This document shows positions 21,846-31,652 of a stretch of DNA of 41,896 nucleotides, piece by piece. Source of the DNA: Acidimicrobiia bacterium (lineage in GTDB: Bacteria > Actinomycetota > Acidimicrobiia > IMCC26256 > JAMXLJ01); assembly GCA_035651955.1 (NCBI GenBank), contig DASRES010000087.1, forward strand, positions 1 to 41,896. The letters are read 5' to 3'. A model generated the notes under the pieces. It saw only the letters and a program-made list of their open reading frames with translations. It ran no database searches and was not told the origin of the DNA. Positions within the stretch are counted from its first letter, which is position 1. Every line of letters begins with the position of its first letter. The position numbers and the translations under genes were made by a program.

Positions 21846-23783
21846 ATGGCTTCGGTCGAGGTTCCCGCGTCGGAGACGGTCGTGACGCATCCGCTGGAGC
21901 CGTTGAGCGCCGAGGAGATCTCGTCGGCGGTGGAGCTCCTGCGCGAGAAGCGTTCGCTGCCCGACACGGCGAGGTTCTCGTACGTCGCGCTGCACGAGCC
22001 CGACAAGGACGCGCTCGCAGCCTTCGAGTCGTCGGGCACGGAGGTCGACCGGTGCGCGGACGCGATCGTCATCGACCGCGCCACCGGTGTCGTCTCGGAG
22101 GCCGTCGTGTCGTTGACCGCGCGTGACGTCGTCTCGTTCGTCGACGTCCCCGACGTGCAGCCCGCGCTGCTGTTCGAGGACTGTCTCGAGGCGATCCTCG
22201 CGGTCAAGGAGGACGCGCGCTGGCAGGAGGCGATGCGCCGCCGCGGCATCACCGACTTCGACCACGTCCAGCTCGACCCGTGGCCCGCCGGGCGGTTCGG
22301 CGTCGACGTCGAGGACGGCCGCCGGCTGACCCGCGTCGTGTCCTACGTGCGCCACGGCGACGCCGACAACGGCTACGCGCACCCGATCGAGGGCGTGCTC
22401 GTCTACTACGACTTCCATGGGCACGAGGTGGTGCAGGTCGAGGACTTCGGGATCACGCCGATCCCGCACGAGTGCTCGAACTACGACGCCGAGAGTCTCG
22501 GCGCCCCGTTGCGCACGGATCGCAAGCCGCTCGAGATCACGCAGCCCGAGGGGCCGAGCTTCACGGTGGAGGGCCACGAGGTGCGGTGGCAGCGGTGGAG
22601 CTTCCGCGTGTCGATGCACCCGATGCACGGTCTCGTCCTGCACACCGTCGGCTACGAGGACGGCGGCCGTGTCCGGCCGATCCTGCACCGCGCCGCGCTG
22701 AGCGAGATGGTCGTGCCGTACGGCCACCCGAGCCCGATGCACGCGTGGAAGAACGCGTTCGACGCGGGGGAGTGGGGCCTCGGCCGGATGGTGAACTCGC
22801 TCGCGCTCGGGTGCGACTGCCTCGGTGTCATCCGGTACTTCGACGCCGTGATGGCGACCGAGACCGGTGACCCGTACGTCGTGGAGAAGGCGATCTGTCT
22901 CCACGAGGAGGACTACGGGATCCTGTGGAAGCACGTCGACATGCACACCGGCAACGTCGAGGTGCGCCGCCGCCGCCGGCTGGTCGTCAGCTCGATCCAC
23001 ACGGTCGGCAACTACGAGTACGGGTTCTACTGGTACCTGTACGAGGACGGCATGATCCAGCACGAGGCGAAGCTCACCGGGATCATGCAGACGATGGCCG
23101 TCGACCCGGGCGCGAACGGCGACGGGTTGCGCTGCGCGGAGATGGTCGCGCCCGGTCTCGCCGCGCCGAACCACCAGCACCTGTTCAACTTCCGTCTCGA
23201 CTTCGACGTCGACGGCACGACCAACTCGGTGTACGAGGTCGACGTCGAGCCGCTGCCGACGGGTTCGGACAACCCGCTCGCGAACTCGTTCGTCACGAAG
23301 CCGACGCTGCTCGCGCGTGAGTCGGACGCGCAGCGGGTCGTCGACCCCGGGCGCAGCCGCACGTGGAAGATCGTCAACCCGCACCGCACGAACCGGCTCG
23401 GCCAGCCCGTCGGCTACAAGCTCATCCCGGGTTCCACGCCGACCTTGCTCGCGTCACCCGACTCGAGCATCTCGCGTCGCGCGACGTTCGCGACCAAGAA
23501 CCTGTGGGTGACGCCGTACGCGCGCGACGAGATGCGCGCCGCCGGCGAGTACCCCAACCAGCACGCAGGCGGCGCGGGCCTCCCGGAATGGACGGCGCGC
23601 GACCGACCCCTCGAGGACACCGACGTCGTCGTCTGGTACACGTTCGGCGTCACCCACGTGCCGCGCCCCGAGGACTGGCCGGTGATGCCCGTGGAGTACG
23701 CGGGCTTCACGCTCGTGCCGGTCGGCTTCTTCGACCGCAACCCGAGCCTGGACGTCGCGCCGCAGGAGCACTGCGCCCACTGA
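21846..23783 (+). CDS. Copper-containing primary-amine oxidase
   Basis: A 645-aa enzyme, normal for cytoplasmic actinobacterial amine oxidases such as the Arthrobacter enzymes; no signal peptide. It oxidises primary amines to aldehydes with ammonia and hydrogen peroxide. The topaquinone precursor is Tyr390 in TVGNYEYG, the catalytic base is Asp306 in NAFDAGEWGLG, and the copper ligands are His443 and His445 (NHQHLF) and His604 (GVTHVPRPEDWPVMP). All are present, so an active, self-processing enzyme is expected. ATG 21846 follows a GGAGG ribosome site at 7-8 nt. A long hairpin lies between its stop and lysS. Aldehyde dehydrogenase, the usual partner, is not in the window. Confidence 0.95.
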   Translation: MASVEVPASETVVTHPLEPLSAEEISSAVELLREKRSLPDTARFSYVALHEPDKDALAAFESSGTEVDRCADAIVIDRATGVVSEAVVSLTARDVVSFVDVPDVQPALLFEDCLEAILAVKEDARWQEAMRRRGITDFDHVQLDPWPAGRFGVDVEDGRRLTRVVSYVRHGDADNGYAHPIEGVLVYYDFHGHEVVQVEDFGITPIPHECSNYDAESLGAPLRTDRKPLEITQPEGPSFTVEGHEVRWQRWSFRVSMHPMHGLVLHTVGYEDGGRVRPILHRAALSEMVVPYGHPSPMHAWKNAFDAGEWGLGRMVNSLALGCDCLGVIRYFDAVMATETGDPYVVEKAICLHEEDYGILWKHVDMHTGNVEVRRRRRLVVSSIHTVGNYEYGFYWYLYEDGMIQHEAKLTGIMQTMAVDPGANGDGLRCAEMVAPGLAAPNHQHLFNFRLDFDVDGTTNSVYEVDVEPLPTGSDNPLANSFVTKPTLLARESDAQRVVDPGRSRTWKIVNPHRTNRLGQPVGYKLIPGSTPTLLASPDSSISRRATFATKNLWVTPYARDEMRAAGEYPNQHAGGAGLPEWTARDRPLEDTDVVVWYTFGVTHVPRPEDWPVMPVEYAGFTLVPVGFFDRNPSLDVAPQEHCAH

Positions 23784-25361: not shown

Positions 25362-25405
25362 GTTGGTACACAAGTCGCGCTCAGGACCGCGAGTTGTGTA
25401 CCAAC
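25362..25405. terminator. 18-bp hairpin after lysS, copy A of a shared element
   Basis: Arm GTTGGTACACAAGTCGCG (25362-25379) pairs with 25388-25405 at 17 of 18 positions around an 8-nt loop. The same arm sequence recurs at 31608-31625. No U-run follows. It is likely a terminator or REP-like element. Confidence 0.6.
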
Positions 25406-25485: not shown

Positions 25486-26691
25486 ATGGCGATGACGAAG
25501 CCGCTCGTGATCGACGCCGACGGCCACACGATGGAGCCCGACGACCTGTGGACGCAGCGGATGGACGCGTCGCGGTGGGGCGACTGGATCCCGCGCAAGG
25601 GCGTCGAGGACGGCTGCTACGAGATCACGTACACGGGGGGCGTCGTGCGCGCCGGCGGCCGGGAGCTGCAGGATCGGCTGGCCGCGGGCGCGGGCATCAC
25701 GCCGCAGCAGTTCTACGACCTGCTCGCGAGCCTGCGCGTCCCCGGCGGCTACGACCCGCACGCGCGCCTCGCCGACATGGATCGCGACGGCATCGACGTC
25801 GCGGTGCTGTACCCCAGCCAGGCGATGTTCTTCGGCCCGCTCGACCCGATCCCCGCGTTGCGCGACATCGACTTCGTGGCGGACTGCATCCGCGCGTACA
25901 ACGACTGGGTCGCCGAGTACTGCTCGGCCGCGCCGACGCGCCTGTTCGCGATGGCGGCCGTCCCACTGCAGGACGTCGACCGCGCGGTCGCCGAGTTGCA
26001 GCGCGCGGTGGACGACCTCGGGTTGCGCGGCGCGTTCATCCGCCCGTCTGCGTACGTCGACGAGTTGCCGTTGAGCCACCCGGTGTACGACCCGTTCTGG
26101 GCGGCCGCGCAGGAGCTCGACGTCCCGGTCGCGCTGCACCCCGGCGTGCACGTCGACACGCCCGGCGCGTGCCGCAAGTTCGGCCTCGTCGCCGACAGCG
26201 AGAACATGATGGTCACGAACTCGTCGGTGGACGAGCTGCACGGCGGATCGGGGCTCGGCCAGGCCGTCGGCAACACCGTCGACATGGTGGTGACGATGGG
26301 TCGCCTGCTCATGGGCGGGGTGTGCGAGCGGTTCCCGCGCTTGCGCTTCCTCTTCCTCGAGGCGGGTGGCGGGTGGATCCCGACCCAGCTCGAGCGCATG
26401 GACGAGCAGGTGAAGGCGTTCCCGCTCGAGAAGCGGTGGCTCAGCCTCCTGCCGAGCGAGTACTTCAAGCGCCAGTGCTACGCGGGCTTCGAGGCCGAGG
26501 AGTGGAACCTCGCCGCGTGCGCGCGGTGGCTCGGGGCGGACCGCGTGCTGTGGGCGTCGGACTATCCGCACCCCGAGTACCACCCCGGGGTCGCGAAGGA
26601 GGTCGAGGAGGCGATCGCCGAGCTCACCGACGACGAGCAGGCGCGCATCCTCGGGCGGAACGCCGTCGACGCCTACCGTCTGCCGCTGTGA
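25486..26691 (+). CDS. Amidohydrolase-2 family metal-dependent hydrolase
   Basis: A 401-aa TIM-barrel protein of the ACMSD/amidohydrolase-2 group. The N-terminal metal motif is IDADGHTMEP (Asp10/Asp12 and His14), a middle His is in VALHPGVH (about 222), and the C-terminal Asp is in WASDYPHPE (about 361). Members hydrolyse or decarboxylate aromatic acids and related compounds; many actinobacterial copies have unknown substrates. ATG 25486 has AGGGGG upstream. It is the first of three tightly overlapping genes (GTGA with the M24 gene, then ATGA with the M24-like gene), so the three products probably work in one catabolic pathway, for instance trimming and hydrolysing an amide or peptide-like compound. 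That pathway role is inference. Confidence 0.88.
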   Translation: MAMTKPLVIDADGHTMEPDDLWTQRMDASRWGDWIPRKGVEDGCYEITYTGGVVRAGGRELQDRLAAGAGITPQQFYDLLASLRVPGGYDPHARLADMDRDGIDVAVLYPSQAMFFGPLDPIPALRDIDFVADCIRAYNDWVAEYCSAAPTRLFAMAAVPLQDVDRAVAELQRAVDDLGLRGAFIRPSAYVDELPLSHPVYDPFWAAAQELDVPVALHPGVHVDTPGACRKFGLVADSENMMVTNSSVDELHGGSGLGQAVGNTVDMVVTMGRLLMGGVCERFPRLRFLFLEAGGGWIPTQLERMDEQVKAFPLEKRWLSLLPSEYFKRQCYAGFEAEEWNLAACARWLGADRVLWASDYPHPEYHPGVAKEVEEAIAELTDDEQARILGRNAVDAYRLPL

Positions 26692-27890
26692 GCACGCGCG
26701 AGACCGGGACCGCCGCGATCGACTTCGACGCGCCGCCCGTCGACTTCGCGCGCCTGCACCACGATCGCGTCGCCAAGCTGCGCGGCGCGATGCAGGCAAA
26801 CGGCGTCGACTCGCTCGTGCTCCTCGGCCAGTCCAACGTCGTGTACGCCACGGGTGCGCGCGCGCCGGCGGCCGACTCGTCGCTCGCCGCGCACCGTCGC
26901 ATGGTCGCGATCGTCGAGGCCGGCGACGCGTCGCCGCACCTCTACACGTCGTTCCCTGACGGTGTGCCTGGCGACCTGCCCGTTGACCACGTGCACGACG
27001 GCCTCCTCGTCGAGACCGACGCGGGCGCGGCCGAGCTCGTCGTGCGTTGGCCACGTGGTCGCGTCGCGCTCGACGAGTACACGATGCCGCTGCTGCGCGC
27101 GCTCGACGGGCGCGAGGTGCTCGACGCCACGGCCGTGACGAGCGCGGCGAAGATCGTGAAGACGGCCGACGAGATCGCGCTCATCCGCACCGCCGAGCTG
27201 CTCAACGAGGCGGCCATGCGCGACGTCGAGCCGCTCGTGCAGCCCGGCGTTCACGCGACGGAGCTGAGCGGCCGGTTCCTCCGCCGGATCTTCGAGCTCG
27301 GCGCGACCGCGAACACGGTGGACCCGATCTTCCAGCTCATGCCGCACTCGATCGACGACGGTCCGTACAGCGCGACCGGCGACCTCGTCTTCCCGACGGT
27401 CACGCGCGACGTCGTGCTGCAGCGTGGCGACGTCGTGTGGGTCGACACCGGCATCAACTACCACGGCTACGCGTCGGACTTCGGCCGGACGTGGATCGTG
27501 GGGCAGGAGCCGACCGCCCGGCAGCGCGACCAGTTCGCGCGTTGGCGCGAGGTGATCACGCGCGTCAGCGACGTCGTGCGGCCCGGCGCGTCCGCCGCAG
27601 ATCTCGTGCGCGCAGCCGGCGAGGTGTACGGACGCCGCCCGTGGCCCGCGCACCTGTACCTCGGTCACGGCATCGGCACCGACAGCGCCGAGATGCCGCT
27701 CGTCGGGACGGACCTCGGCCTCGACTTCGACGAGACGTTGGTGCTCGCGGCCGGGATGATCGTGGTGCTCGAGCCGATCGCGTGGGAGGACGGCCACGGC
27801 GGATTTCGCGCCGAGGAGATCCTCGCCGTCACCGACGACGGCTGCGAGCCCCTGACCCACTACCACTACTGGCCGTTCGAGACATCATGA
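26688..27890 (+). CDS. M24-family metallopeptidase (Xaa-Pro aminopeptidase/creatinase fold)
   Basis: A 400-aa protein with an N-terminal creatinase-type domain (about 25-150) and a pita-bread catalytic domain (about 165-395). All five dinuclear metal ligands are present: Asp253 and Asp264 (VDTGINYHGYASDFGRTW), His327 (YLGHGIGTD), Glu362 (VVLEPIAW) and Glu376 (GFRAEEIL). It should cleave an N-terminal residue before proline or act on a related amide. GTG 26688 overlaps the amidohydrolase stop (GTGA) and its own stop overlaps the start of the next gene (ATGA). The third gene product is a relative that has lost most ligands. Confidence 0.92.
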   Translation: MSTRETGTAAIDFDAPPVDFARLHHDRVAKLRGAMQANGVDSLVLLGQSNVVYATGARAPAADSSLAAHRRMVAIVEAGDASPHLYTSFPDGVPGDLPVDHVHDGLLVETDAGAAELVVRWPRGRVALDEYTMPLLRALDGREVLDATAVTSAAKIVKTADEIALIRTAELLNEAAMRDVEPLVQPGVHATELSGRFLRRIFELGATANTVDPIFQLMPHSIDDGPYSATGDLVFPTVTRDVVLQRGDVVWVDTGINYHGYASDFGRTWIVGQEPTARQRDQFARWREVITRVSDVVRPGASAADLVRAAGEVYGRRPWPAHLYLGHGIGTDSAEMPLVGTDLGLDFDETLVLAAGMIVVLEPIAWEDGHGGFRAEEILAVTDDGCEPLTHYHYWPFETS

Positions 27891-28912
27891 CGAACGAGCA
27901 CCTGCAGCGGTGCCTCGACGAGATGGCGCGCGACGACGTGGACGTCCTCGTGCTCGGACGCGAGGCGAACGCGCGGTACGTCTCGGGCGCGACGCGGCTG
28001 TGGCTCGCGGGCACGCGGCCGTTCGGGCCCGGGTGCGTCGTCGTCCGCTCGACGGGCGCGGTGCACCTCCTCAGCGGGACGGACGATCTGGTCCCGCTTC
28101 CGCGTGACCGCCTGTTCCCGATGAGCTGGAGCCCGGGGAACATCGTGCGCGCGCTGACCGCGATCCCGGGCGTCGCCGACGCGCACCGCATTGCTGTCGA
28201 CTCGCTCACCCCCGGGTTCGACGGGCTGCTGCGCGACGCGCTGCCGGACGCCCGGCTCGTCGACGGCTCCGACCTCGTCGCGCGGGTGCGCCGCTTCAAG
28301 ACCGCGGACGACGTCGTCGCGATCCGCGACGCGGTCGCGGTCGCCGAGCATGCGCTGTCGTGCGCGCTCGGTTCGCTGCGTCCCGGCGTCCGCGAGCGCG
28401 ACCTCGTCGGCGCGTTCGTCGAGGCGTCGTCCGAGCAGGGCGTGACGACACCCGCGTTCGACCCGGTGTTCTCCGTGGTGGTCGACGGCTCGGCGCGCGC
28501 GTTCGCGACGGCCCGCACGGTCGCCGCCGGCGACCTCGTCGACGCGACCGTCGGCGTGCTCGCGCACGGCTGGGAGGGACGGCTCGCGCGGACGTGGGTG
28601 TGCGGCGAGCCCGGCGACGCGCCGCGGGACGCGTGGCGGGCGTGGACGAACCAGCGCGACCGGATCGTCCCGCTCGTACGTCCGGGCACGCGCGTGGGCG
28701 ATCTCCAATGCGGCGACGGCGTCGAGATCCGTGGCGTCGGGACGGGCGACGAGCTGCTCGACGACGACGTCACGCTCGCGCCCGGCATCGTCGTCGCGGT
28801 CTCGATCCGTCACGCGGGCGTCCACGTGGAGGACACGCTGCTCGTCACCGAGACCGGTTACGAACGGCTCACGACGTTCCCGTACGGCCCCCTGGCCGAC
28901 GCGGCGTCCTGA
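27887..28912 (+). CDS. Degenerate M24-fold protein, probably non-catalytic
   Basis: A 341-aa relative of the preceding protein, with both the creatinase-type N-terminal domain (LQRCLDEMARDDVDVLVL) and the pita-bread domain (FKTADDVVAIRDAVAVAEHAL). Of the five metal ligands only Asp219 (DLVDAT) and Glu315 (VHVEDTLL) remain. The second Asp is Arg232 or shifted to Glu230, the GHGIG His is Arg282 (IRGVG), and the LEP Glu is Ser306. It is about 60 aa shorter. ATG 27887 overlaps the upstream stop (ATGA). M24 creatinase-type enzymes work as dimers, so this could be a regulatory or substrate-binding partner of the active copy. Alternatively it has taken a different reaction. Confidence 0.8.
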   Translation: MTNEHLQRCLDEMARDDVDVLVLGREANARYVSGATRLWLAGTRPFGPGCVVVRSTGAVHLLSGTDDLVPLPRDRLFPMSWSPGNIVRALTAIPGVADAHRIAVDSLTPGFDGLLRDALPDARLVDGSDLVARVRRFKTADDVVAIRDAVAVAEHALSCALGSLRPGVRERDLVGAFVEASSEQGVTTPAFDPVFSVVVDGSARAFATARTVAAGDLVDATVGVLAHGWEGRLARTWVCGEPGDAPRDAWRAWTNQRDRIVPLVRPGTRVGDLQCGDGVEIRGVGTGDELLDDDVTLAPGIVVAVSIRHAGVHVEDTLLVTETGYERLTTFPYGPLADAAS

Positions 28913-28924
28913 CCCGTCACCCCG

Positions 28925-28971
28925 TTCATGCGTCGCTCGTTGTCGCTCTACGACGCTGAACGACGCATGAA
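28925..28971. terminator. Long imperfect hairpin between convergent genes
   Basis: TTCATGCGTCG (28925-28935) pairs perfectly with CGACGCATGAA (28961-28971). The stem continues inward, with two mismatches and two G-U pairs, to the loop at 28946-28950. It lies between the ends of the M24-like gene and the pyruvate kinase gene, so it can serve both. Confidence 0.6.
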
Positions 28972-31606: not shown

Positions 31607-31652
31607 CGTTGGTACACAAGTCGCGGTCATAGGCGCGACTTGTGTACCAACG
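31607..31652. terminator. Perfect 19-bp hairpin, copy B of the shared element
   Basis: CGTTGGTACACAAGTCGCG (31607-31625) pairs perfectly with 31634-31652 around an 8-nt loop. The arm equals that of the hairpin at 25362-25405. It lies between the convergent diiron protein and dehalogenase genes, fitting a bidirectional terminator, but there is no U-run. Confidence 0.65.

Follow-up and report, generated by a model that had tools for sequence, protein, structure and literature searches.

Two neighbouring genes code for proteins of the M24B fold, one with a complete metal site and the other without, and the question raised by this locus is whether they specify two enzymes or the two chains of a single one. 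Both genes, named here M24-A and M24-B, lie behind an amidohydrolase gene in a stretch of 41,896 nucleotides from an Acidimicrobiia bacterium (contig DASRES010000087.1, assembly GCA_035651955.1), which was analysed at its full length and is referred to as the window (Table 1).

Table 1. Features of the three-gene unit, with positions in the window.
Feature	Position	Strand	Basis or remark
Amidohydro_2 (PF04909) protein of 401 aa, leading gene of the unit	25486..26691	+	Pfam E 9e-43
M24-A, 400 aa, GTG start, proposed catalytic subunit	26688..27890	+	Pfam M24 E 7e-32, Creatinase_N
M24-B, 341 aa, partner without metal site	27887..28912	+	Pfam M24 E 2.7e-18, Creatinase_N
Overlap of M24-A stop and M24-B start, ATGA	27887..27890	+	sequence
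Cap-loop codons of M24-B, residues 34-53 (GATRLWLAGTRPFGPGCVVV)	27986..28045	+	best-kept stretch of M24-B

Both proteins displayed a Creatinase_N and a Peptidase_M24 domain above the Pfam cut-offs and shared about 32% identity in a two-sequence alignment; they account for two of the five M24 domain matches in the window's genome. The three genes are tightly packed, since the amidohydrolase stop and the GTG start of M24-A have GTGA in common and M24-A and M24-B are joined by ATGA. The compact unit and the ATGA junction described in the original prediction were thus both recovered; the interval that it assigned to the pair is exactly that of M24-B, M24-A lying outside it. The unit is flanked by a gene upstream and a gene on the opposite strand downstream which, from reading their translations, we take to be lysyl-tRNA synthetase-like and pyruvate kinase-like, respectively.

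The metal ligands of M24-A are Asp253, Asp264, His327, Glu362 and Glu376. All five had already been recognized in the window, and this DDHEE set was invariant in the 50 M24-A sequences of the family alignment. In the window's M24-B, Glu315 was the sole residue occupying a ligand column. Asp219, the second residue thought to be retained, aligned with Trp251 of M24-A without gaps nearby, two residues before the ligand column. Thr221, Arg232 and Arg282 were found in the columns of Asp253, Asp264 and His327, respectively, and the Glu362 column contained Ser in one alignment and a gap in another. These columns were taken from family alignments (excluding L101 and L013, which are not pair loci) and not from the two-sequence A/B alignment, which sets the His327 stretch against a gap in M24-B. 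None of the 48 readable M24-B sequences, out of 49 aligned, possessed the full set, so that ligand loss goes beyond a single aberrant gene; the 49 rows matched at most two of the five ligand letters, a figure that depends on the alignment. An assembly error or a frameshift behind the loss was rejected, as the losses recur in many genomes.

Far from usually occurring without the first gene, the second one had M24-A directly upstream in all 49 loci with a B, window included. These adjacency counts come from tblastn, gene calling having placed the anchor in just 33 of the 49 sequences. In the order (58 genomes, all candidates of the A and B searches scored), B occurred at 22 places and A at 23, and every B was directly preceded by A; A proteins made up eight of the 30 rows of the B search. 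The class sample of 395 genomes, which includes those of the order, yielded A at 36 places in 33 genomes and B at 35 places in 32, with B adjoining 35 of the 36 A places (best 4 to 9 candidates per genome scored, a limit that may hide an isolated additional copy); among the 37 rows of its B search were two A proteins. At the thresholds used, A was found without B in G042 only, the same case in order and class, where A sits at a contig end. Of 396 genomes sampled across the phylum, 12 contained B, including two known from the searches above; here and in the family search that follows, scoring covered the best 4 to 9 candidates of each genome, with the same limit as in the class. The ten newly found genomes are part of a 201-genome set from the family of G463, in which 24 A and 24 B places were one-to-one, adjacent and in the same 20 genomes, with one B gene truncated at the edge of its contig. 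We take this family (f83) to be Mycobacteriaceae, since the same gene set occurs on a plasmid of Mycobacterium branderi, and its loci are called mycobacteria-like here. Spacing was also constrained: the M24-B start overlapped the M24-A stop in 14 of the 20 order loci listed (start codons picked by script), and the gap between the genes was at most 149 bases across the 49 loci (starts and stops picked by script).

Searches in other material returned 17 plasmid records, of which H1, H2, H3, H5 and H9 were read. H1 was the A/B pair. Records H3, H5 and H9 contained alphaproteobacterial M24 genes beside which an incomplete gene table lists no second M24, and in H2, a record free of annotation, tblastn detected a single M24 that is closer to A than to B. 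A contig scan with M24-B gave 102 pattern stretches, in which an M24 of an Agrobacterium MAG was the sole, weak relative, and a viral contig scan with the A alignment gave 50 pattern stretches and no relative. By eye, the usual ligand motifs were also absent from an M24 protein of an Agrobacterium MAG (L013, 5959-7110).

The constant side-by-side occurrence of a live and a dead gene suggests one two-part enzyme. With a probability of roughly 0.7, M24-A and M24-B would be the two chains of an obligate heterodimeric enzyme of the M24B fold, with A:B as its working form. In this arrangement M24-A holds the intact two-metal site, and M24-B, its own metal site lost, would cap the active site of A in trans with its N-terminal loop. 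Taken alone, co-inheritance and adjacency would likewise be compatible with two proteins that share a pathway without touching. The loss of metal ligands could furthermore mark M24-B as a decaying duplicate without function, which is highly improbable given that B is kept in the window's class and in another class of the phylum, is constantly linked to A and displays strong conservation of its cap loop (see below).

The history of the two genes was followed in a 67-row tree that comprised nine other M24 proteins besides A (29 of 50 sequences) and B (29 of 49). A, B and the other M24 proteins were each set apart from the rest by a branch with support 100/99. This topology fits one split into A and B. 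Midpoint rooting was used for drawing only, and the idea of A and B as sister clades was dropped, since a midpoint-rooted tree with three single groups cannot tell nearest relatives. Across 46 loci, the pairwise identities of A correlated with those of B at 0.93. In the 13 genomes that also supplied a prolidase control, the correlation was 0.80 between A and B versus 0.36 between A and control and 0.45 between B and control, and a partial A-B correlation of 0.76 was left after taking out the control. This shows, at the level of sequence, that the A and B genes travel as a unit; correlation alone says nothing on contact.

A sharper expectation concerns the distribution of conservation within each protein. 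Were A:B the working dimer with one live site, the loop of B and the catalytic domain of A would be kept and the rest would drift. Over 46 loci (L060, L049 and L051, cut by contig ends, being left out), mean pairwise identities were 41.4% and 52.9% for the N- and C-domains of A, and 49.3% and 38.5% for those of B. The N-domain of B was more conserved than that of A in 925 of 1035 pairs, and the C-domain of A more than that of B in 1032 of 1035. In the order (L060, L049, L051 and L063 left out), the N/C ratio was 0.80 for 19 A sequences and 1.33 for 19 B sequences, N exceeding C in 3% and 98% of pairs, respectively. The mycobacteria-like set, taken together with the window, gave 0.86 (0% of pairs) for 15 A sequences and 1.18 (98%) for 15 B sequences. 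Thirty single-gene prolidases of the order, those of 41 listed prolidase places with loci given, had a ratio of 0.89 with N above C in 9% of pairs, this control set showing lower divergence than those of A and B. The pattern is inverted in B, and A and control both keep N below C; the A ratio of 0.80, not far under the 0.89 of the control, counts against the expectation on the A side.

The best-conserved 15-residue segment of M24-B in the order set was its cap loop (LAGTRPFGPGCVVVR), as was the case in the prolidase control. Taking the best segment within the loop in each set, the B loop reached percentile 1.00 (rounded) in the order, the other class members and the mycobacteria-like set; the corresponding values for the A loop were 0.59, 0.51 and 0.94. 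Relaxation of the A cap is thus not general, the mycobacteria-like A loop being well kept. The M24-B loop aligned with the FGRKYG loop of a creatinase, in which Phe62 and Arg64 play the part of the residues that reach into the partner's active site. Excerpts of published reports describe Asp45 of E. coli PepQ, on an N-domain loop, as reaching the partner's active site (PMC4213023), a loop of P. aeruginosa PepP as contributing to the site of the adjacent subunit (PMC5723419), and the DddP tunnel as built by both chains, with all metal ligands coming from one (PMC4108388). The distribution expected for a working A:B dimer, kept parts and drifting parts alike, mostly matches the data. A mixed dimer with one catalytic chain had been put forward in the original prediction; it is supported, indirectly, by the 49/49 pairing and by this conservation pattern, and the case for it appears much stronger than the window alone could make it.

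Two other arrangements have to be weighed against these data. M24-A could be an active homodimer into which M24-B swaps as a regulator or inhibitor, giving an inactive or altered dimer. The conserved A cap loop of the mycobacteria-like loci would agree with this, as would C. elegans PID-5/APP-1, for which the excerpted report describes a link between an inactive and an active M24 protein by IP-MS (PMC10377022). We consider it unlikely, since genes that adjoin one-to-one and mostly overlap point to equal dosage, unexpected for an optional regulator, and since the A loop is merely average in the order and other-class sets. Somewhat less likely again is a separate M24-B homodimer, for example a binding protein or, with a remodelled active site, an enzyme in its own right, serving the same pathway without pairing with A. 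A new site could be marked by recurrent replacements, e.g. Arg in the Glu376 column of 27 of 49 B rows, and by the conserved G283, G285 and G287 of B. Yet, these replacements differ between groups, conservation within B is lower in the pseudo-catalytic domain than in the remainder, and the best-kept part of B is equivalent to the loop facing the partner's active site in relatives.

If the A:B heterodimer is retained as the preferred reading, its chemistry would depend on M24-A. Two columns, matched by motif and presumably equivalent to His243 and His361 of E. coli PepP, displayed His at both positions in 30/30 control prolidases and in 0/48 A rows; the first was a gap in all 48 A rows and the second Ala in 46 and Gly in two. 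A third active-site histidine was kept in 44 of the 48 A rows. The active-site histidines of E. coli aminopeptidase P are given as His243, His350 and His361 in excerpts of two reports (PMC5774706, PMC5723419). Because two histidines of Xaa-Pro peptidases are absent, M24-A is probably not a peptidase, and the label 'Xaa-Pro peptidase' probably wrong; M24-A is more likely to be a hydrolase or lyase of small molecules, although within the proposed mechanism action on a small molecule rather than on peptides is held less firmly than the division of roles between the chains. The missing histidines do not liken A to creatinase, since three creatinase-like plasmid proteins keep both.

M24-A did not reach the cut-off of any of the 14 listed NCBIfam families, among them DddP (53.7 bits versus 600), PepQ (71.7 versus 630) and ectoine hydrolase DoeA (42.4 versus 575 and 29.9 versus 613). 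Its single-chain model, built from a three-row alignment, was of middling quality (pLDDT 65.8, pTM 0.71) and serves for fold assignment only; it matched prolidases, the DMSP lyase DddP, ectoine hydrolase and creatinase in the PDB, with no choice among them. The single-sequence AlphaFold model of M24-B (pLDDT 40.6) was too poor to use.

The pair resembles several known systems in part. Like creatinase, prolidase and aminopeptidase P (M24B), it displays the two-domain fold, with the five metal ligands in A. These relatives are described, in the excerpts considered, as assemblies of identical chains, in contrast to the present pair where one chain lost its metal site; M24-A further differs from Xaa-Pro peptidases in the two histidines discussed above. 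PepP of P. aeruginosa is reported in an excerpt as a monomer in solution (PMC5723419). The C. elegans case likewise associates an inactive M24 domain with an active aminopeptidase P, and a heterodimer was modelled there, according to the excerpt of that report (PMC10377022). PID-5/APP-1 is eukaryotic, comprises an eTudor domain and has a proposed regulatory role; the A/B pair is bacterial, encoded by adjacent genes in a one-to-one relationship and probably no peptidase. Heterodimers with the zinc motif in one chain are described in an excerpt for family M16B (mitochondrial processing peptidase, SPH2681/SPH2682, TTHA1264/TTHA1265 and AlbF/AlbE), TTHA1264 and TTHA1265 being neighbouring genes (PMC12731061); they differ by their family, their HXXEH zinc motif and their clam-shell architecture. 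EBP1, like M24-B, combines an M24 fold with lost ligands and keeps two of five; it differs by its own role in cell growth, and the excerpted report names no adjacent active M24 partner (PMC11266112). No publication on the M24-A/M24-B pair was found among the matches listed in our literature searches, as far as their excerpts tell.

Conservation of the amidohydrolase together with the pair was only partly borne out. In 31 of 50 loci, a same-strand Amidohydro_2-type gene was located no more than 400 bp from the pair, belonging to the window type (upstream, 11 loci), a mycobacterial type (upstream, 16) or a third type (downstream, 4), and the Amidohydro_2 domain was confirmed in one member each of the last two. 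It was absent beside the pair in the other 19, of which only L049 lacked upstream room. The window-type gene occurred at 19 places in 13 of the 58 genomes, 11 of them being those beside the pair. The amidohydrolase is a frequent, not obligatory, third gene.

Genes for P450, crotonase-type and double class III CoA-transferase proteins recurred in mycobacteria-like loci, and AMP-ligase genes both there and elsewhere. The SDR gene at pair loci owes its name to the Mycobacterium branderi annotation, and genes that we take to be TetR and acyl-CoA dehydrogenase genes, from reading translations, were also found near the pair. These surroundings look like a CoA-linked catabolic cluster. As a less firm part of the mechanism, the enzyme may act with the amidohydrolase in a catabolic route to which mycobacteria-like loci would add P450, SDR, enoyl-CoA hydratase and CoA-transferase.

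A wider proposal, to which we give somewhat less than an even chance, is that Actinomycetota possess a family of obligate asymmetric heterodimeric M24 enzymes. It would probably have arisen when, after a duplication, the two functions of a homodimer were divided between the copies, A keeping the metals and B a trans substrate-binding cap. The reaction, not that of a peptidase, would be part of a catabolic route yet to be described, linked to the amidohydrolase, dependent on CoA and common to the window's lineage and mycobacteria. If true, this would be a bacterial case of a symmetric metalloenzyme turned into a split one, in which one chain is live and the other dead and the separated roles are visible in sequence conservation. 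Genes annotated 'Xaa-Pro peptidase family protein' and 'M24 family metallopeptidase', as is the pair on the Mycobacterium branderi plasmid, may then be neither peptidases nor separate enzymes, and the pair would point to a recurring catabolic cluster.

Several further elements were recorded near the pair. An 815-aa protein (L102, 10008-12455) displayed two matched CoA_transf_3 stretches, and its cluster occurred near the pair in 13 loci. An APH-type phosphotransferase was observed near the pair in L077, L078 (369 aa), L079, L080, L081 and L085, sometimes with genes read as acyl-CoA dehydrogenases. In the window, a copper amine oxidase gene (PF01179, E 1.8e-162) lies upstream of the unit at 21846-23783. 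Just past M24-B, and before a gene read as convergent, an 11-base perfect inverted repeat (TTCATGCGTCG, 28925-28971) is a possible terminator; within the window, its pattern is not clearly more frequent than expected by chance. Two sites, 25363-25404 and 31609-31650, contain a palindromic element whose arms are 16 bases long (TTGGTACACAANTCGC). Genome-wide, 49 arms were counted as 23 complete palindromes and three single arms, versus zero for the pattern read backwards, and the element may be a terminator, an operator or a REP-like repeat.
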